Positions 52,644 to 64,000 of a stretch of DNA of 64,000 nucleotides are shown one piece after another. Source of the DNA: Pochonia chlamydosporia 170 (taxonomy: Eukaryota > Ascomycota > Sordariomycetes > Hypocreales > Clavicipitaceae); assembly GCF_001653235.2 (NCBI RefSeq), contig NC_035792.1, forward strand, positions 496,001 to 560,000, written 5' to 3'. The notes under the pieces were generated by a model. The model saw only the letters and a list, made by a program, of their open reading frames with translations. It ran no database searches and was not told where the DNA came from. The first letter of the stretch is position 1; every line of letters starts with the position of its first letter. Made by a program: the position numbers and the translations under genes.

Positions 52644-54972
52644 ATGAGAATGACCATCATGGGCGACAATGGTGGTTCACCATCTACTGCCGGAGGCGAA
52701 ATAAAGAAAGTAAGCGAGAATGTACTCTCAATTCAGAACTTGTGCGAAAGTTGCAGGGAGATTGATCTTGCAAAACTGCTCCATGTGTCACAGCAGCACT
52801 CATACCCTCGTCCGCCTGGAGGTTCGTGCGGTATTCCAAGCTCATTCCCTCACGTTATCGTCAGATATGCCTCTTTGTCTTTTCAAGGGAAGCACAGCAG
52901 TAATGCCAACTGCGAATTATGCGCATTCATCTTGTCCCAGGTCGCGCGACAACAGAATGCCGACTTCAATCTGAATAGGCCCGTGGAGATGGCCCTGTCG
53001 CTACCCCCTGTGACAAGATATCACTTCTATTTTCAGGATACGTCAAAATATGGGTTTCTCAGAAATGAAGACGAGTTCAAATATGAGTTTAGACACAATG
53101 AAAACATTGGTAAAGTTCCTGAAACTGTGCAGTCTGTTTCAACGCCTGAGACATTTGAAGGAAAGCCCGTTACCATCAACATTGCATGCCGAGCCGGTAA
53201 GACTTTCACCCTTTGTTGCTTCTGATTGAAACATAAAACGGTGCTGATGTATCATAAATACTGCAGAAAGCCATCTGTCAAAAAAGATACCTCGACGATT
53301 GGTTCATGCACGGGGGACACAAGGCAGCTTCCATCAAATGAGGAAGTGGCTGCGCGAATGTGACGAGACCCATCCAGGCTGCAAAATTGGTATCGACCGT
53401 GAAAAGCTTCCCGATGATCCCAACTTGCCAACCAGAGTCATCGACGTAGGCGACGTGGACTCCGACCAAGTACACCTTTTCATACCGCAGCCCAACTCTC
53501 CTGGAAGATATGCAACCCTGAGCCACCGATGGGGTGGTGATAGTTACTGCGCCTTGACGAAAACGACTGTATACGCGCTTCAGAGTGGAATTTGTTACAG
53601 TGACCTGCCACCTACTTTTCGAGATGCCATTACCGTCACGAGACAGTTGGGATTGCGCTATCTCTGGATTGACACGTTTTGTATCATTCAAGACGATGGA
53701 GAAGACTGGGCTATTGAATCAGCTCGCATGGGAGACATTTACGAAAGGGCATACATCAACATTGCGGCGACTGGCGCCGTCGATGGCACTGGTGGTTTTC
53801 TGTCGTGCGGAATCCGTAACCAGTCGAGCTTCAGTCTCCCGTGCCAGGAATGCGGCGAGATTGGCTGCATCACCTTTACAGATCAACCTGACAGTAGCTT
53901 CTATAAAAACGTCATCAAGACGCATATCAACGAACGAGGATGGGTCTTCCAAGAAAGACTCTTATCCCGACGGACGCTACATTTTGCCAAAGACCAAATC
54001 TACTGGGAATGCGGGCATCACATTGTTTCTGAAGATGGACATACACACAACAACTATGACGATGCACCGGAGACAGATCCTCAACCTAGAGAGGAGAATT
54101 CGTTCAGAAACCTGACGTTGAAGCATTATAACCTGGATGACACGAAGATTGTGTTGAAGAAACACTTTGATTTTGAATGTATTGGTCCATCACTCCAGGC
54201 TCCTCTCTCGTCTGCAAACGTAATGGACGTTGATGATGTGGAAGAAGAATGGCGACGATATGTTGCGTGGATGGAGATTCTACGCAACTACACTGCGTGT
54301 CATCTAAGTTTCACAAAAGACAAACTTCCAGCGCTGCAGGGATTGGCATCCAAAATGTCGAATCTGATCAAGGCAAAGTATAACTATTCAGCTGGTCACT
54401 TTATCGATGCCACAGCCTCGTTATTATTCACGGTCCAATCACCCGGTGGTCGACCAAAAGAGCCTCGCTGTTCATCTTGGTCGTGTCTCTCTGTCGATGC
54501 ACCTATATCATTCTACGACTGCCAAAGTGCCACGCCCTGTATTCGGCTGGATATAGACAAGACGTTTTCTCTACCGACAAAGAAAGATTTTGCGTCGTTG
54601 GTTCTAACCGGCTCCATGAGGAGTGTCAAGAGAGGCCCACCGAATGGTGAAGGCAGCGGCCCAGCTCGCCATTACTCGATGCATTACTTCTCGGAAACGC
54701 CGTATGGCAAGTTTCAAAAGACGTTGGGGCCGGTTGTGTTTGATGACCCGGCGGATACGCCTGCGGAGTTTTGGCTGGTGCCGTTTTGTAAGGTTACGCC
54801 TAGACAACGGACGGGGAACCAGGTCATGGCGGAGAATTGTCTTGTGTTGGCTTTGGTGAAGACGGGGGGTGAGGTTGGTAGGTATCTTGAGTTTAGAAGG
54901 GTTGGGATTGGGCATGTCTATATTTCGGGGGTTTTTGGGGATGTGGAATCGGTTACGTTTGCGTTGTCGTAG
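52644..54972 (+). CDS. HET-domain (heterokaryon incompatibility) protein
   Basis: Exons 52644-53196 and 53267-54972 (70-nt intron, GTAAGA donor, CTGCAG acceptor, phase 1) encode 752 residues. The ATG at 52644 is chosen; an in-frame TTG lies before it. An N-terminal cysteine-containing region (IQNLCESCREIDLAKLL, NANCELCAFILSQVA) precedes the HET domain at about 266-420: YATLSHRWGG, PPTFRDAITVTRQLGLRYLW then IDTFCIIQDD, RMGDIYERAYINIAATGA. The WVFQERLLSRRTLHFAKDQIYWEC block that usually closes the domain is present. HET domains are related to TIR and trigger cell death when incompatible fungal cells fuse; many copies have no known partner. The long C-terminal part (about 330 residues) has no recognised domain. 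It is the left neighbour of the array of genes sharing a C-terminal module. Confidence 0.92.
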
Positions 54973-56680: not shown

Positions 56681-58102
56681 ATGGTGAAGCGGGGAATATC
56701 TCGATCTCGAAGAATGAGGGGCGTGCGAAACGGCAAGAGAAAACACATCCAGTGCGACGCACGAAACGAAGAGAGTGACGACCACAAGAGGCAGCGACAT
56801 GATAAGGATAAAAGCAACGACAAACTGGATGACCAAGTTCGCAATGCCACCATCATCCCTCACGACAAATATTATATTGGCTGGATTTGTGCGTTGGATA
56901 TTGAGTTAACTGCTGCTACCGCTATGCTGGATGTTGCCCACGGCCCACACCCTCAGCCTGAGAACGACATCAATAACTACACGTTGGGTTCTATCTCAGG
57001 ACACAATGTTGTTATCGCGTGCCTACCCTTTAACAGCTACGGCACAAATACTGCGGCAATAGTTGCTACGCACATGCGGCGCACATTCTCCTCGATATGC
57101 GTTTGGCTGCTTGTTGGAATTGGGGGTGGAGTTCCGGGCAAAGTTGACATAAGGCTAGGCGACATCGTTGTCAGCACCAGAGTTCTTCAGAGCGATCTTG
57201 GAAAGATAGAAAAGGATGGCCAATTGCATCAAACCGGCCTTGCGTGTGCACCATCCCAAGGTCTTATGACAGCCGTCGCTACAATGAAAGCAAAACACAG
57301 AAAATCAACCAACGAGCTCTCTAGGATTCTGCAAAATCTGCGCGAGGGTCCTTGCATGACAGATTTTGCGAGCCCAGGTGTCGAATCGGACTTACTATTC
57401 GACAGCAACTACGAGCACGAGTCCCTGATGCGAGAGAACTGTGATGCTTGTGACAGATCAAGACTTGTGCACCGAAATACCCGCGTTGATGAGAAACCAA
57501 TGGTCCACTACGGCATCATTGCATCTTCCAACCAACTTATACGTCATGCCAGAACAAGGGATCAAGTGGTCCAAATCGCTGACAATATCTGCTTTGAAAT
57601 GGAAGCTGCGGGTTTGATGGATAGCTACTCGAGCCTGGTGATTCGCGGAATCTCTGACTATTCAGATTCGCACAAGAACAAACAATGGCAGGGTTATGCT
57701 GCCGCCGCCGCCGCAGCGTACGCCAAAGAGCTCCTTTCAATCATACCGTTGAAAGAGAGGCAGGAATCAGAAATACGGCGCGGTATATCAACAACGCGAG
57801 GCGTCACTGCTCGTCATTCTCGCAACAACTCTCCGGATACGGAGACACCCGGAAAAGCACATCGGATCAAAGACATTAAAGCCGGGCAAAACGCAAAGTT
57901 GGTCTTTCATTCGGATGACTCCCCCTTGAATGTGAGTGGCGTGAGTGCCGGGGATAATGCCATTGAGTTCTTCGGATCCGGAGGACATCTACTTTTGCGC
58001 GAACTCCTCCATGGGCCGATCAGGGCAAAGGCTCCGGCGGCTGAAGAGACGGTACAGGAAGAGACCACGATTTCTACCAGTAATTCGAAAAGTACGTCTT
58101 AA
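56681..58102 (+). CDS. nucleoside-phosphorylase-like (PNP_UDP) protein with shared C-terminal module
   Basis: One exon, 473 residues; ATG at 56681 is the first in frame. Residues 1-60 are strongly basic (SRSRRMRGVRNGKRKH, DHKRQRHDKDK) and look like a nuclear signal. The phosphorylase-like domain is at about 64-355: YYIGWICALDIELTAATAML, LVGIGGGVPG (146-153), DIRLGDIVVS, and FEMEAAGLMD (305-314) before VIRGISDYSDSHKNKQWQGY. In fungi this domain usually stands in front of NACHT or NB-ARC modules of NLR-like proteins; here there is none. Instead, after a serine-rich linker, residues 394-446 (nt 57860-58018) hold a two-part module (HRIKDIKAGQNAKLVF, VSAGDNAIEFFGSGGHLLLR) that recurs in the next three genes. 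It converges on the 58185 gene with 82 bases between stops. It could sense a nucleoside ligand or hydrolyse nucleotides; either is inference. Confidence 0.85.
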   Translation: MVKRGISRSRRMRGVRNGKRKHIQCDARNEESDDHKRQRHDKDKSNDKLDDQVRNATIIPHDKYYIGWICALDIELTAATAMLDVAHGPHPQPENDINNYTLGSISGHNVVIACLPFNSYGTNTAAIVATHMRRTFSSICVWLLVGIGGGVPGKVDIRLGDIVVSTRVLQSDLGKIEKDGQLHQTGLACAPSQGLMTAVATMKAKHRKSTNELSRILQNLREGPCMTDFASPGVESDLLFDSNYEHESLMRENCDACDRSRLVHRNTRVDEKPMVHYGIIASSNQLIRHARTRDQVVQIADNICFEMEAAGLMDSYSSLVIRGISDYSDSHKNKQWQGYAAAAAAAYAKELLSIIPLKERQESEIRRGISTTRGVTARHSRNNSPDTETPGKAHRIKDIKAGQNAKLVFHSDDSPLNVSGVSAGDNAIEFFGSGGHLLLRELLHGPIRAKAPAAEETVQEETTISTSNSKSTS

Positions 58103-58184
58103 ACTTGCTATTTATTTACTTCTTGTCAATTAAAAGCTCACAACTTCTTGTCCACCTCAAACTGGAGACGGCGCGGCGGCATAT

Positions 58185-58532
58185 TCATTTAGAGGCCGTT
58201 CCACTGCTTTCTTCCCGCCTGCCGAGCTTAAATCCGCTTCCATACATTGTCCCAAATGTAGATTTACCATTGTAATCTCGGGCTATGGTCGTCTGGCGAC
58301 TGCTCAGAAACTTGGAGAGTTCTGGAACCGAGGATTCGTCCCAAGCGCCGATCACTTGCCAAGAATTCACACCGGCTTCCACGTTCTCTGCATCGTAAAC
58401 GTGATCCTTCGTAGATACGAGGAGCTGTACGCTGTCGTCTCCCGCTTTGATATCTTTTAGACGATGTGTTGGTCGCATTGTTGGATCAGGTCCTTCTGCA
58501 ACGTCCATTTCTCGATCGGAATCCATCGACAT
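58185..58532 (-). CDS. short protein consisting mainly of the shared C-terminal module
   Basis: ATG 58532 gives 115 residues; the frame runs a little further up but without an ATG, and no upstream exon is evident. After an acidic start (MSMDSDREMDVAEGPDPTM) comes the module at residues 23-76 (nt 58305-58466): HRLKDIKAGDDSVQLLVST and ENVEAGVNSWQVIGAWDESS. The tail (about 77-115) is basic and glycine/serine-rich (FGTMYGSGFKLGRREESSG). It is nearly identical to the module of the phosphorylase-like protein in the first eight positions (HR[IL]KDIKAG). Being convergent with that gene and module-only, it could act as a decoy, a seed or a regulator of its neighbours. A gene fragment left by duplication is the main alternative. 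Confidence 0.65.
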   Translation of the reverse strand: MSMDSDREMDVAEGPDPTMRPTHRLKDIKAGDDSVQLLVSTKDHVYDAENVEAGVNSWQVIGAWDESSVPELSKFLSSRQTTIARDYNGKSTFGTMYGSGFKLGRREESSGTASK

Positions 58533-59762
58533 GTCGGATCGGGTCACCGTTTTTGGCAAGATGAAGCGGAGTAGTCACTGAAGCAGAGTGAAATAATGAT
58601 CGAACTGAATGACAAGACAGATATCTCGGTTACTCGGCACCCTAGGCAAAGGCCCTGCCTTTAAATTATGTAGAAAATTGACGAAGATGCTTCAACCCAA
58701 GCTCGCGATGCGCTGTGTTGGGACGCAAGCAATCCTGCATGGCCACAAACTGGGCTGAGCACTTGGTCCCAGGCGCCACCCCTTCCTACCAGACTCCGCA
58801 GCCGGAGCCTGCGGAGGGTGTCGGGCCAATCTATTGGTTGTCCAACGACGGGATAGTAGCGACACAAAGTCCCAGGCCGCCTGGGATATGCTAGGCAACG
58901 CCTGACCACGGCGCGCGCCTCTCCAATCCAATCAATAGCCAAATGGCGAATTACACAAGGATGACACCTTCTCTCTCTTTTCTGGTTGGAATGGAGTACA
59001 TGTCACGCTGAAATACCATCAAAGCTTAGTTGACACAGCGCTGCAGAATAATATCACGAGCTCCAGAATGCTGAAGATTTTTTACCCCGCATTAGGGGCC
59101 GATGTTGGTGAACATGGCTGCAAAGGCCAAGGCATGTAAGCGCCCAGCTTGATTGTGCAGGGTTGAGGGGGTTTGGCGTTCGCCCGGCGCTTGTTGAAAC
59201 TCAGAGGAGCTTCTACCGCTCTGTAGCCGTAGCTGGCGTCGTCATCAATGGTGGCAACACATTGGTCAGCCATGAACGTTAGTCAGGCGTTGCATCGGGA
59301 GTCAAATGAGATCAGCCCCGTATATGAGCAAGGCAACAATGGCCACTCCTAATATCCCAGATGAGAACAAATAAAGCTTGAACTTAAGCCGAGATGTTTT
59401 CTCGTGCGTGCCTTGAAATTCAAATTCTGCATCCTCTTGCGTCAGGGAATTTCTCAGAGCGCCACCGCTTGGGATTGATTGGTTCCTCGATACAACCAGA
59501 CAGCAACGGTTATGCCTCGTCGCCCCACACCCGATGTAACTCTGTCGACTGGCGCCGCCCATAAAACCAAGCTCAGAGCCAAGGTGAGGCCTAGCTGCCT
59601 CGTATCTCATCAAAGGTCGTGCGGTGATGTCTCAATAGGCCGTAAGTTCCCCCTACAAGTAAAGCTTTGGTGCTTGATAACGTTAATGCTTGTCGTATTA
59701 AAGGATATCCCTCAGCCGAATTCACACAGGTAGTTGGCAATCCAATCAGTCTTCTCTGAAAC
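58533..59762. other. intergenic, divergent promoters inside the array
   Basis: Between the starts of the module-only gene (minus) and the HeLo-like gene (plus). Short frames here have no features. No mobile element is seen. Confidence 0.45.
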
Positions 59763-61089
59763 ATGGCAGATCCTCTGAGCGTAGCATCTGGTGTCGTCGC
59801 GTTGGTGACTTTCGCCCTTACGTCCAGTGTCAACCTGTACACGACAATTCGCGACTTCCAAAGCCAAGACAAAAGAGCACGTGCGTTAAAGAACGAACTC
59901 AATGATCTTACAGCCGTACTGGAGTCACTCTTAGAAACCGTCAGCAACAACCCAGAAATCAGCTTTGAGGCTCTTAAAGCTCCTCTTCACCGTTGCGGGA
60001 ACGCGTGCAAGGAGTATGGGGACCTAATCTGTCGTTTTACAACACGCTCTACACCTTCACGATCGAGTGTACGAGATTGGGTCACCCAGAAATATCTTCA
60101 AGGAGATATCACCGACTTTAAGGACATGCTGGCTGGGTATAAATCCACCATAAATATAGCACTTGCCAACGCAACCATGTAAGTTAAGCTCATGCTAGTC
60201 GCTGTTTTGCACAAATGAGTTGACTGTTTTTTCACCTAGTCGGGTAGCTGCCATAACTCCAAGAGTGCTGGAAGACTATAAAGATATGATATCAGATGCG
60301 ACCCAAGATTTGAAGGAACATTTGCAAAAGTTGGATGAAAAAATTCAGCTCCTCTCGCATTCCGACCAGAACGACACTGAATGGCAAGCCATGATGGAGG
60401 AGAAAAAGAGTACACAGCAGGGCCTTAGAATCTGTGCTCAGCTATCAGAACGGATCGAGCAGCTGGAACCAGTGCCAGAAGAGCCTTCCCAGTTTTCCCA
60501 ACGTCCTTCGGCACATAAATATGTCAAAAATGGATTGGATGCCACAAAAGGATCTATTCGCAATCTCGTAACACAGCTGCGTAGCCACGAAGAGGACATC
60601 GATCGGCGAATGCAGGTAATGGCGTCTACGGATACTATATCTAAAGACGCAGCCACGGAGCTTGAACGATTGCGTGCGACAAAGGAAAGCATCCATCAAT
60701 GCATAAATGTTATCTCTGATGCAGATGATACTAAAGCAATTGAGCGACACAATGTTTTCGAAGATATTACTCTGGCCGATGATGCCTATAACTTTACAAT
60801 CTCGACTGTTGGAGACCTTGTAACCGCCAGGCGCATCAATCTTACAGGACGGTCACGCAATATTGGCGGGCAAATAAGTGACGAAAGTTATCAAAAAACC
60901 ATCGAAAGCTTTTCAAAGCAGACAATACAGGATTCTCAGCAAGTCACCAAAACCCTCAACCAGAGTACCTCCACTCCTGACCAAGGAACTCAAGGTGACA
61001 CAGAAGGCGTATTTGATAATCGTCATGGGCCTGGCGTTAGGCTCTCAAGCTCAGCAGAAAATCAGATATGTTCGAATACTACGTTATAA
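59763..61089 (+). CDS. HeLo-like N-terminal domain protein with coiled coil and shared module
   Basis: Exons 59763-60178 and 60240-61089 (61-nt intron, GTAAGT donor, CCTAG acceptor, phase 2) encode 421 residues. Residues 1-140 match the fungal N-terminal domain found on STAND proteins and on azaphilone cluster protein L: MADPLSVASGVVALVTFALT, then ALKNELNDLTAVLESLLETV and KEYGDLICRFT. The first 25 residues are hydrophobic, as in HeLo-type membrane-active helices. A charged helical region follows (about 145-300, LKEHLQKLDEKIQLLSHSD, with the RICAQLSERIEQL element). The shared module is at 309-364 (nt 60748-60915): HNVFEDITLADDAYNFTIST and SRNIGGQISDESYQKTIES. Unlike its neighbours it has a further Ser/Thr/Gln-rich tail of about 57 residues. 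A cell-death effector or scaffold role is inferred from the domain class. Confidence 0.85.
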
Positions 61090-61725
61090 TCCGCAGAGTA
61101 CCAATGCAAAATAGAACGGAATATTCTGAACGCGACGCAGTGCTGGTTGGGTTTTGTCGTTGTGATTCTCACGCCCAGTGCCTGCGTTCGCTTTAAAAGT
61201 CTTGACCTAATTGGCAACGTGCCGCCTTGAGTCAAATTTGGTCATCGAAAACATGCATATTTCCGGACGCCTTCTTTAAATGGAGATTTAAAGCTGTTGT
61301 TAATATATCCTACCGTAAGAGTGTGTCTCTCAAAAGATTTCACTGTTGTGTTGTCGGTTGGGAAGTGAGGCAAATAGATGGCAACCCACCCACATTCGAC
61401 ACCACCTTGTGCACTGTGTGGCGCCAAGGTTGACATGATGATCATGTGGACAGTTCATCACCTTGTACTGGAAAGAAAACAAGGGAAGGAGTTCAAACGA
61501 AGTCGTATCAAGTGGCAAAAACAATCCAGAGTCAAAGGATACACCACTTGGTGCAACCAAGCAGGAATAACCCAATTTCCAGATATGTACTCAAAGACAA
61601 ATGCGTCACAATCGATAGATTCCATCTACTACTAGCCCGTGAGATATAGCGAAGGGTTTCTTAGGCGTAGCTAATTATATTTGACAATCTTATTACCCCA
61701 GAAAACTATCGAGAGCAGACATTGA
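61090..61725. other. intergenic between convergent genes
   Basis: The 3' flanks of the HeLo-like gene and the truncated relative. No supported frame. Confidence 0.5.
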
Positions 61726-62391
61726 TTACCTGGGTATTTTGGTCCTAAAATACTCCTTTAAAGCAGCATCCGACATTGTTCCAATCAGCTGAATCGCCCT
61801 GTTTTCGGCGGCCACCTTCTTAACATCAAAGACATCTCCTAATGTAGACACGATAAGCTGCTGCCCATCATTTCCCAAACTGATATTTTCAAGAACATGT
61901 GATCTCCTCTGCGGGACACGACCGGCGGTATCCCTGCAGAAGTCATGATGTTTCCTGTCTGTTTCGTGCTGTAGCTTTTCGAACTTTGCTTCTGCGAGCT
62001 TCCCAGTCTTTCGCGTCGACTTGGCGGAACGTTTAGGTGGATCAAAATCATCCTTCTCCGCATACAAATGCAACTCTGAAATTGCCTCGCAAAGCAATTC
62101 GGTACAATTTTTCAGCGTTGAGAGTGTTATCACATCCGCCAGGGTCAAGCAGTGAGACTCGAGAGGCGGTGATGTTGTTAGGTCGGGGGGTATGTCTTTA
62201 ATTAACGGGAAGTATATCTCGTTAATACGGATGAGGACCCGGCTACAAATATCCAAGCACTTCTCAGCGCTTTTTTGTTCGGTGTGTATTCTCAAGTAGT
62301 TTGACATCTTGACTGCCTTTTTGGTTGTTGGTGTAGTAGTTGCGGAAAAGCCAAATTGTTTGGCAATAAGCTGTGCAGCAAAATATACCAT
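61726..62391 (-). CDS. shared-module protein lacking the HeLo-like domain (truncated relative)
   Basis: ATG 62391 gives 221 residues in one exon. Residues 35-60 (EQKSAEKCLDICSRVLIRIN) match the second part of HeLo-like proteins, including the CLDIC element that corresponds to GLRIC in the 59763 gene. A charged middle follows (KRSAKSTRKTGKLAEAKFEK), and then the module occupies residues 165-221 up to the C-terminus (nt 61729-61899): HVLENISLGNDGQQLIVSTL and NRAIQLIGTMSDAALKEYF. The N-terminal HeLo-like domain is missing and no upstream exon supplies it; about 300 bases upstream the DNA turns AT-rich. It may be a 5'-truncated copy cut off by repeat invasion, with a new start, or a true short form. 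The frame is intact, which argues for use. Confidence 0.72.
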   Translation of the reverse strand: MVYFAAQLIAKQFGFSATTTPTTKKAVKMSNYLRIHTEQKSAEKCLDICSRVLIRINEIYFPLIKDIPPDLTTSPPLESHCLTLADVITLSTLKNCTELLCEAISELHLYAEKDDFDPPKRSAKSTRKTGKLAEAKFEKLQHETDRKHHDFCRDTAGRVPQRRSHVLENISLGNDGQQLIVSTLGDVFDVKKVAAENRAIQLIGTMSDAALKEYFRTKIPR

Positions 62392-64000
62392 TTATGTTGC
62401 GGCACGGTATTTGATCGCACAGTGATCAGATGGCGTGCAATACTGTGCATTAGCGGTAACACCACTCAGATAGGCTTGAGCGAAAGATGCAAACTATGGT
62501 ACTCGTGAACGTTCCAGATGCATGGCGAAGTTTAGTAAATAACCTACATAGACTTGTTGTAGGTGTATGGAATATCTTTCTGCCCAGAAAGAAATGTTAG
62601 ACGTAAGTGAAGAGCAGGATAAATGCCACAATCAGCTTATTTGTTGGTTCGCAATAATAAAGGTCCCGTTAACCTGGCTAAATCACGCGCCCCAAGCAAT
62701 AATACAATAATCAGTTAGCTTGCAATGGTGTGCCACCAAATTCTAGAATTTCAATTAGCGCAGTATAGGTTATATTTTATCTTCTATAGCATAAGAATTC
62801 ACCCAGAACATTAGATCATGTTACTCGTTGTAACGGAAAGAATTCCATACCCTGTGTTGCTAACTCTATACTCTGTATAGTCTCGCGTGTCGCGTTTTAA
62901 CGATAACCACAAAAGCATTTCACAGATCTCTAGTCTCTTTTAGGTGTAATATTACTGTAGTTATTATTCAATCGACTAGAATTGCCGCGGCATTCTCGCA
63001 AGCTTGCAGCATAATTATTAGTGCCAGTCCTTTAAAGGGGTTAAGAGAGCAGGCTAGCATAGGATATACTTATATAGAAAACACTTATTACAGTCTTAAT
63101 AATTAATTAAAATAGATTGCATATTCTTACAGCTTAATTATTATTAGTATCACACATGGGTAAAAGACCTAGTCTAAGAATAACATTTTAAGACTTATAG
63201 GGTGCTCTTAAGAGTAATATAACTGCCTAATTCTCTATTAGAAATAGTTTAAGAGCTTTCTCTAAAGTTTATCTAGTTAAAAATAATGCTCTATTATAAA
63301 GTATTAGTGTTTATAACCTAATGCCTTCTAAAATGTAAGACTTTATACTAAAAAGTTAGCTTTAGTCTCCTCTTAGTATTTCTCTAGTGCTGCTATAGCA
63401 CTACTAAGAGCAATAAAGGCAATAGTAGCTAGAGAAGCAAAATATACAGTAGCAGCTTAAGTGAGATAATGTTAAAATTTTCTAGTATTCTTTATCTTTA
63501 AATAAAAGACAGCTATTTAAGAAGCTATAGGTTAGATAGAATTATTAGCGCTTAGTTTAGAGAACTAGAAGTCTTTTAATGCTGCGCTATAAGTTATTTT
63601 CACTTAAAAGCCTTATAAGAATTTTAATTAAGTATATACTGCATTCTATTTTAAGCTTAATATAACTCTTTGTAAGGGGCTAGCCTAGCGGCTTCTGCGA
63701 GCTAGCGTCACTAATAGTAACTTTTCTCATAGAGAGAAGTCAGAAAAGAGAAAGGGGGAATAGATTAGCTTAGCCCCATAGAGGACCCTTATAGAGCCCG
63801 GTTAAGCTCCGGTGGAAACCCGCGGTAGATCCTTAGGCCGCCTTTCTGGCGCACTTGTCTCCTTCTCCCTTAAGATCCAAGCGCTACGCTTGAATCCGTA
63901 ACACCCTTTAGAGTTTAATTGCTTAGCAATTTTTTGCTATATAACATATCCTTATAGCTATTTATAATCTAGCTCTAAAGGGACTTAAAACGCTAATATT
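62392..64000. repeat. AT-rich, RIP-like degenerate repeat DNA
   Basis: From about 62.7 kb the sequence becomes AT-rich and poor in CA/TG but very rich in TA, the mark of repeat-induced point mutation. For example, 63241-63300 has ten TA dinucleotides and no CA. There is no open frame of note. A less AT-rich island at about 63670-63900 may be the least mutated part of an old mobile element. The element itself cannot be identified. Confidence 0.7.
63878..63931. repeat. pair of small perfect inverted repeats
   Basis: Arms caagcg/cgcttg around cta at 63878-63892 and arms aattgc/gcaatt around tta at 63917-63931, both 6+3+6. They lie at the edge of the less AT-rich island in the RIP-like region and could be part of a non-coding element. 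Confidence 0.55.

Follow-up and report, generated by a model that had tools for sequence, protein, structure and literature searches.

A candidate NLR-less HET-s-like signaling cluster in Pochonia chlamydosporia, with a module-only protein that may link two effectors

Results and discussion

Genes and features of the locus

The window, that is, the whole stretch of DNA analyzed here, comprises 64 kb of the genome of the nematode-parasitic fungus Pochonia chlamydosporia 170 (NC_035792.1, positions 496,001-560,000). Its features of interest, in window coordinates, are the following.

56681..58102, + strand: PNP_UDP_1 (PF01048; Pfs-type nucleoside phosphorylase/nucleosidase) protein, 473 amino acids, with module A C-terminal
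57860..58018, + strand: module A (from translation; homology to module B, P = 1.2e-9)
58185..58532, - strand: module-only protein B, 113-115 amino acids depending on the start codon, tail to tail with the PNP gene, without a Pfam domain
58305..58466, - strand: module B, made up of two repeats (r1, r2) with a period of 23
59763..61089, + strand: HeLo-like (PF17111, PigL_N) protein C, 421 amino acids, with a coiled coil and module C (from Pfam and splicing)
60748..60915, + strand: module C (from translation; profile match)
61726..62391, - strand: protein D, 221 amino acids, a C-like coiled-coil part plus module D, without a HeLo-like domain (from alignment with C)
61729..61899, - strand: module D (from translation)
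53248..54972, + strand: HET-domain (heterokaryon incompatibility) open frame adjoining the cluster, without the module (PF06985, 101 bits)

An earlier, sequence-only reading of the window had proposed that four neighboring genes share one bipartite module on different front ends, each copy beginning with H and usually containing [VI]-S-T. Translation recovered all four modules where they had been placed, each with its initial H; the [VI]-S-T stretch is present in three, and module A reads F-H-S instead. The front ends differ as proposed (PF01048 before A, no domain before B, PF17111 before C, and before D a C-related segment without a Pfam domain). The PF01048 match of the PNP protein scores 33 bits against a curated Pfam cut-off of 25.1, and its EMEAAG and GISDYSD stretches align to the adenosylhomocysteine nucleosidase 4jos. 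PF17111 matches protein C with 178.1 and 74.8 bits (cut-off 27.2) on two exons, 59763-60178 and 60240-61089, and splicing out the intron at 60179-60239 yields a single open frame. Protein D has no Pfam domain at cut-off, PF17111 included; its alignment with C (pairwise E 3e-9, 21% identity over 182 columns that include the module) begins past the HeLo-like domain and extends to the module, and only this later part of C is common to both, for which reason the earlier label of a truncated HeLo-like type is a fair one. The module profiles gave no match in the HET-domain frame.

Homology and repeat structure of the module

A joint profile run over the 64-kb window found the four modules and only one further, chance-level match (E 3.3). 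In profile-profile comparison, all six pairs scored above their column shuffles: P was 1.2e-9 for A-B, 2.7e-11 for B-CD, 6.9e-10 for C'-CD, 8.5e-8 for B-C' (52 gapless columns), 3.7e-7 for A-CD and 1.4e-3 for A-C', with real scores of 19.8-53.4 against a top shuffled score of 18.5 (pair CD-C'; 60 column shuffles per pair). By these sequence comparisons, the modules on the differing front ends of neighboring genes are homologous.

The second half of the module repeats the plan of the first, as had been suggested. Seven representatives (A, A', B, C, C', D and the second module of P0003) were aligned by hand for the tests of period, frame and charge; because they are homologous, the cells counted in these tests are not independent. 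In the combined alignment a period of 23 fits best, its autocorrelation being equaled in none of 2,000 column shuffles, and the same period is best singly in four of the seven. No known domain was found for the module in Pfam, a search for sequence relatives in the PDB returned only a chance-level match (E 0.78), and the B-family profile found no sequence relatives there.

Relation to HRAM and other amyloid motif classes

The resemblance to the HET-s class claimed from the sequence holds for repeat period and core hydrophobic spacing, but not for glycine 19 of r1, loop length or residue 15. Like HET-s/NWD2 and HELLF/FNT1 (HRAM1-5), in which a HeLo or HeLo-like domain is followed by a pair of pseudo-repeats, each about 21 residues long, the module has two repeats (period 23), hydrophobic residues at core positions 5, 8, 10 and 18 (53 of 56 cells, compared with 10-27 of 48-56 in eight shifted frames), glycine 19 in r2 (7/7 representatives) and charge complementarity between r1 and r2. 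As described for HRAM5, most repeats (10 of 14) have Q at position 16. Unlike those systems, glycine 19 occurs in only one of seven r1 repeats, the repeats are joined by about two residues in place of the 6-18-residue loop seen in 154 of 155 published HRAM cases (one case has a short loop), the module occurs additionally on a PNP enzyme and in a bare protein, and an adjoining NACHT/NPHP3_N gene is absent. Of the 14 repeats, 13 have a residue at position 15 (one has a gap there), and just one of these residues is the K/R that HRAMs prefer. Pfam PF11558, a model that matches only 38 of the 155 published HRAM proteins, is matched by none of the 41 B-family members. On these sequence features, the module is not an HRAM in the strict sense.

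Two other motif classes were considered and rejected: the G-h-Q-h-G-like pattern of the PP motif is absent from all 165 sequences, as are the PUASM pattern FxGxGxQxxGxGxF and its inner GxGxQxxGxG (0/165 each). The architecture has parallels nonetheless. According to PMC5485727, the PP motif (HELLP/SBP/PNT1) and the sigma motif (sesA/sesB/het-eN) mark clusters of three genes, two of which encode different effectors with an amyloid motif in common; two differing effectors share a motif here too, but the third gene there encodes an NLR and here a module-only protein. PNP_UDP effectors with a C-terminal amyloid-type motif, the architecture seen here, appear in PMC9815663 (section 24) as PUASM and HRAM3-like NLR12, whose motifs, unlike the module here, are described there as common to NLRs. 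The module may overlap with the NLR12 and PF01048_015 motifs.

Protein B and recurrence of the gene set

A search with B returned 39 proteins at E<=1, its own record P0124 included, and by sequence B is a member of a family of small fungal proteins, in which no Pfam domain was found. The B module profile kept 40 of 41 family members (P0161 was dropped); set A4 excludes P0124, the window's own B. Module B is under strong purifying selection, and dN/dS between the PNP gene and its copy at the C19 locus is 0.22. The structure model of B predicts a two-rung fold, with HELLF and HET-s as the best, though weak, structural matches; a second, low-confidence prediction did not reproduce this fold.

Whether module genes adjoin PNP or HeLo-like genes elsewhere was a check proposed with the earlier reading, and it came out positively. 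The set of PNP_UDP, convergent module-only and HeLo-like (PF17111) genes recurs at two further loci, C12 and C19, which are duplicates of each other. The tail-to-tail PNP/B pair is kept at all three loci, with stop codons 40-82 nt apart (82 nt in the window); at C12 the PNP gene is interrupted and the B frame is still open. A broken copy of B lies at C11, 8 kb from an NPHP3_N/NACHT gene. In Metarhizium brunneum, PNP and bare-module genes have consecutive locus tags.

Two effectors and the question of the sensor

The sequence-only reading cast the PNP protein as sensor and the HeLo-like protein as effector. The second assignment agrees with the effector role described for HeLo-like proteins, and the first does not stand, PNP_UDP being likewise described as an effector in PMC9815663 (section 24) and PMC12881547. 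Both are effector types; the locus therefore consists of two effector types and a bare module, and no sensor was found. As to an adjoining NLR, the search for NACHT/NPHP3_N matches found none closer than about 98 kb to the window cluster (on its contig, C3); on C12 the nearest is about 112 kb away, and on C19 none is listed, so that a local NACHT/NPHP3_N gene completing the cluster was rejected for all three loci. In the published HRAM set, an NLR is adjacent in 98 of 155 cases.

Module homology, repeat period, charge pairing, the HET-s-motif core, recurrence of the gene set and purifying selection on B are the basis of our best reading, an NLR-less HET-s-like signaling cluster in which the module-only protein would link two effectors. 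We give about an even chance to the specific proposal that the module is a HET-s-type homotypic interaction module and B a relay that templates the PNP and HeLo-like tails in regulated cell death or incompatibility. The module stands near the C-terminus of an enzymatic (PNP_UDP nucleosidase type) and a membrane-targeting (HeLo-like) effector, and alone in B. Its two 23-residue pseudo-repeats would stack as two beta-solenoid rungs and extend a growing fiber (a fold predicted for B only); a signal would trigger assembly of B, presumably as amyloid; assembled B would template both tails; and PNP and HeLo-like proteins would multimerize into active forms, causing nucleotide depletion and membrane damage, respectively, and so regulated cell death or incompatibility.

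Signal passes from NLR to effector in the fungal amyloid signaling systems described in the papers cited here. If our reading is true, two effectors and a conserved module-only partner, with no NACHT/NPHP3_N gene nearby, would mean that the HET-s fold can act as an adaptor in its own right as well, for which animal ASC and MAVS offer a comparison. B would also be a small protein with which to probe natural prion-like relays beyond [Het-s] and sigma.

Alternative explanations

The module might instead be an ordinary soluble domain for docking or oligomerization, built of a short pair of beta-arches and a helix, that holds PNP, HeLo-like protein and B in a stable complex, with neither amyloid, templating nor a switch. 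The helix at residues 68-87, after the strands of the B model, points this way, as do the six of seven r1 repeats lacking glycine 19, the weak fold match that the second prediction did not reproduce, and the high conservation of the C'-type module among the 120 proteins listed from 315 matches in all (70 of these 120 make up set A5). We regard this explanation as possible, if somewhat improbable.

We are similarly doubtful that the cluster belongs to a usual NLR-controlled amyloid pathway, whose NLR would lie elsewhere in the genome and carry only one, diverged r0 repeat. In its favor, NPHP3_N gives 97 match rows in this genome, one NPHP3_N/NACHT gene neighbors the broken B copy, and in PMC9815663 (section 24) non-adjacent NLR/effector pairs are suspected most for HRAM3-like NLR12, whose effectors are PNP_UDP proteins. 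Against it, when single modules and a second-module variant were searched against the fungus's own genome, no hit fell on any listed NACHT/NPHP3_N place, and repeat profiles upstream of NLR matches scored as in shuffles, in a scan that covered 41 of the 97 places with about 700 bases each and sought 21-residue repeats, which are hard to detect.

An unlikely explanation is that PNP (with or without the HeLo-like protein) is harmful and B an inhibitor capping its module, loss or mismatch of B bringing death in the manner of toxin-antidote or incompatibility gene pairs: B as a module without an effector, the close tail-to-tail pairing, the Metarhizium tags and the selection on B would suit it, but B stays open at C12 where PNP is interrupted, and the 39 proteins found for B against two for the PNP module speak against a fixed tie between B and PNP, an argument that is weak because the PNP search was a single query of short reach that missed the window's own PNP.

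The HeLo-like arm

The broader form of the relay proposal, which we advance only tentatively, is an NLR-independent amyloid system in which B would be a self-templating, possibly natural prion-like relay firing PNP and HeLo-like proteins together, with the module-bearing HeLo-like arm widespread in filamentous ascomycetes. If so, that arm would have been overlooked because surveys kept only proteins of fewer than 310 residues or began from NLRs, and a function would be suggested for a large fungal family named so far only after a pigment cluster (PigL_N). The idea that every HeLo-like gene of the genome carries the module was rejected: at the other PF17111 places scanned (C5, C11:566, C1, C4 and C2, each with about 1.5 kb flanks), the best joint-profile match had E 0.57. 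The C/D profile picks the C' module (P0001) at E ~8e-9 and the window's B at ~1e-5. Module D is related to P0001, and shares 43% identity over 42 residues with the HeLo-like modules of C12 and C19.

The module cluster

The window spans positions 496001-560000 of contig C3 in the 44.2 Mb genome of Pochonia chlamydosporia 170 and contains the cluster. Translation located all four two-repeat modules proposed by the sequence-only reading:

57860..58018 (+): module A, near the end of a 473-residue PNP_UDP_1 protein
58305..58466 (-): module B, about half of a 113-115-residue protein on the strand opposite to the PNP gene
60748..60915 (+): module C, after a HeLo-like (PF17111) domain and a coiled coil in a 421-residue protein encoded by two exons
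61729..61899 (-): module D, preceded by a C-like coiled-coil part and without a HeLo-like domain, consistent with the truncated HeLo-like type suggested earlier

Gene B is placed tail to tail with the PNP gene, 82 nt from its stop. To compare the modules we built profiles of four families (A-type, n = 3; B-type, n = 40; C/D-type, n = 3; and C'-type, the module of P0001-type HeLo-like proteins, n = 70). All pairs were related at P values of 1.4e-3 to 2.7e-11, and every real pair scored above its own column shuffles (19.8-53.4, against a shuffled maximum of 18.5; 60 shuffles for each of six pairs); modules A-D are homologous. Profile searches across the examined loci agreed. With the C/D profile, E was about 8e-9 for the C' module, about 1e-5 for window B and about 5e-4 to 4e-3 for the A-type module of the duplicate-locus PNP, and window module A was not matched; the A profile recovered window B (1e-4) and D (3e-3). 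Alone among 161 proteins, P0003 (Aspergillus nanangensis, 521 residues) carries two modules, C'-type and C-type (290-349 and 435-493), and is either a genuine double protein or a fused gene model; its second-module variant, searched against the whole genome, returned only weak matches to C (E 0.34) and D (E 0.82).

Between the window and its counterpart on contig C19, module B has a dN of 0.033 and a dS of 0.81 (ratio 0.04), compared with ratios of 0.24 for the whole B protein and 0.22 for the PNP (dS 1.6, near saturation). The B protein is real and constrained, its module more so than the rest. The B family also shares a C-terminal G-x-G-x-x-L tail (G100 invariant, G98 and L103 at least 90%), and B-like HGPGxxL tails can be read directly after the module in C and P0003. 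The tail of window gene B (58185-58532, -) might correspond to the glycine/aromatic segment that follows the HET-s repeats.

Recurrence of the cluster

Single-module searches of the Pochonia genome recovered B copies on C19 (94% identical), C12 (93%) and C11 (frameshifted; G000:C11:502142-502304), together with A-type modules within PNP frames, and PF17111 followed by a C-type module, on both C12 and C19. Exact protein matches place P0001 (VFPPC_11477) on C12 and P0121 on C19. A single segmental duplication (96% identical across 9.7 kb and extending further) accounts for the C12 and C19 loci, which therefore count as one independent locus besides the window; their lesions differ (a TAG in the C12 PNP frame, stops in the C19 HeLo-like gene), and both sequences were kept uncorrected. 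PF17111 exceeds the cut-off at six places (C12, C3, C19, C5, C11 and C1), three of them cluster loci. A chromodomain-type frame adjoins B in both duplicates (L018:3005-3763 on C19, where PF00385 was tested, and L019:3218-3976 on C12), and none was seen between the cluster genes of the window. A relic C'-type module with two stops (61% identical over 36 residues) lies at G000:C2:5950543-5950650.

A search for PNPs with the module gave 2 of 60 candidates, Metarhizium brunneum being the only source besides Pochonia; its reach was short, given that the window's own, more diverged PNP was not returned. In M. brunneum the locus tags of the PNP and B genes are consecutive. The B family comprised 39 of 76 candidates at E<=1, including the window's own record, and the 13 other named members come from hypocrealean genera. 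The C'-type module was present in 315 of 356 candidates at E<=1, in a search confined to about 234-745 residues, limits that would hide large NLRs; the best 120 of the 315 are 74-100% identical, from Aspergillus, Penicillium, Talaromyces, Pseudogymnoascus and others.

A putative relay between two effectors

The sequence-only reading had cast the phosphorylase-like protein as sensor and the HeLo-like protein as effector, a division that we do not retain: fungal immunity uses PNP_UDP and HeLo-like domains alike as effectors (PMC9815663, PMC12881547). Because the PNP, aligned to a nucleosidase, also retains its EMEAAG and SD stretches, we read the locus as two effectors, A (PNP) and C (HeLo-like), which relay B would join; in our judgement B would be a relay rather than an inhibitor. 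D, a C-type protein minus the HeLo-like domain, could act as a regulator. The searches recovered B-type proteins from a broader range than module-bearing PNPs, as expected of a hub, but they were unequal in reach.

Several observations speak against a HET-s-type reading of the module. Its first repeat lacks glycine 19 in six of seven representatives, the inter-repeat linker is about two residues, and position 15 is K/R in 1 of 13 letters; by strict features it is no HET-s-related amyloid motif, and at most resembles one in its working. A second AF2 model, of P0001 (70-sequence alignment), was poor overall (pLDDT 49), and its module region was predicted as two strands and two helices with no two-rung pattern. 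Too little alignment depth, or a chain that does not fold as a monomer, may explain this outcome, but the model does not support the HET-s-type reading. The strong conservation of the C'-type module is also compatible with a constitutive role.

In the available text of the fungal amyloid-signalling literature, including PMC9815663, PMC4518210, PMC7889193, PMC5485727, PMC12261475 and PMC12881547, we found no description of this module or of a module-only partner. A 2015 survey was limited to proteins of fewer than 310 residues and a 2022 survey (PMC9815663) started from NLR N-termini or effector-NLR neighbours, designs that HeLo-like proteins of 420-430 residues without NLR neighbours would escape. 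Partial overlap with the known PNP motifs NLR12 and PF01048_015 is possible.

Candidate sensors and flanking features

An NLR bearing a diverged single repeat may exist elsewhere in the genome, which has 61 NACHT and 97 NPHP3_N match rows. The nearest lie about 98 kb from the window cluster (C3:453893) and about 112 kb from the C12 cluster (C12:201692), and none is listed on C19. On C11, the frameshifted B has an NPHP3_N/NACHT gene (C11:510539; L063) about 8 kb away, with no module repeat detected in the stretch upstream of that gene. In the stretches upstream of 41 NLR matches (41 of the 97 NPHP3_N rows), most of them about 700 bases long, profiles of the two repeats reached at most 5.8 bits, similar to shuffled sequence (up to 5.2); the window's own repeats, which were in the training set, scored 14-48.

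Two other features flank the cluster. The PNP gene is preceded at a distance of 1.7 kb by a HET-domain (PF06985) open frame (53248-54972, +), which may form part of one incompatibility-type neighbourhood with the cluster. Beyond the cluster, GC drops to 33% over the window's right end (63001-64000), perhaps marking degenerate repeat-rich DNA.
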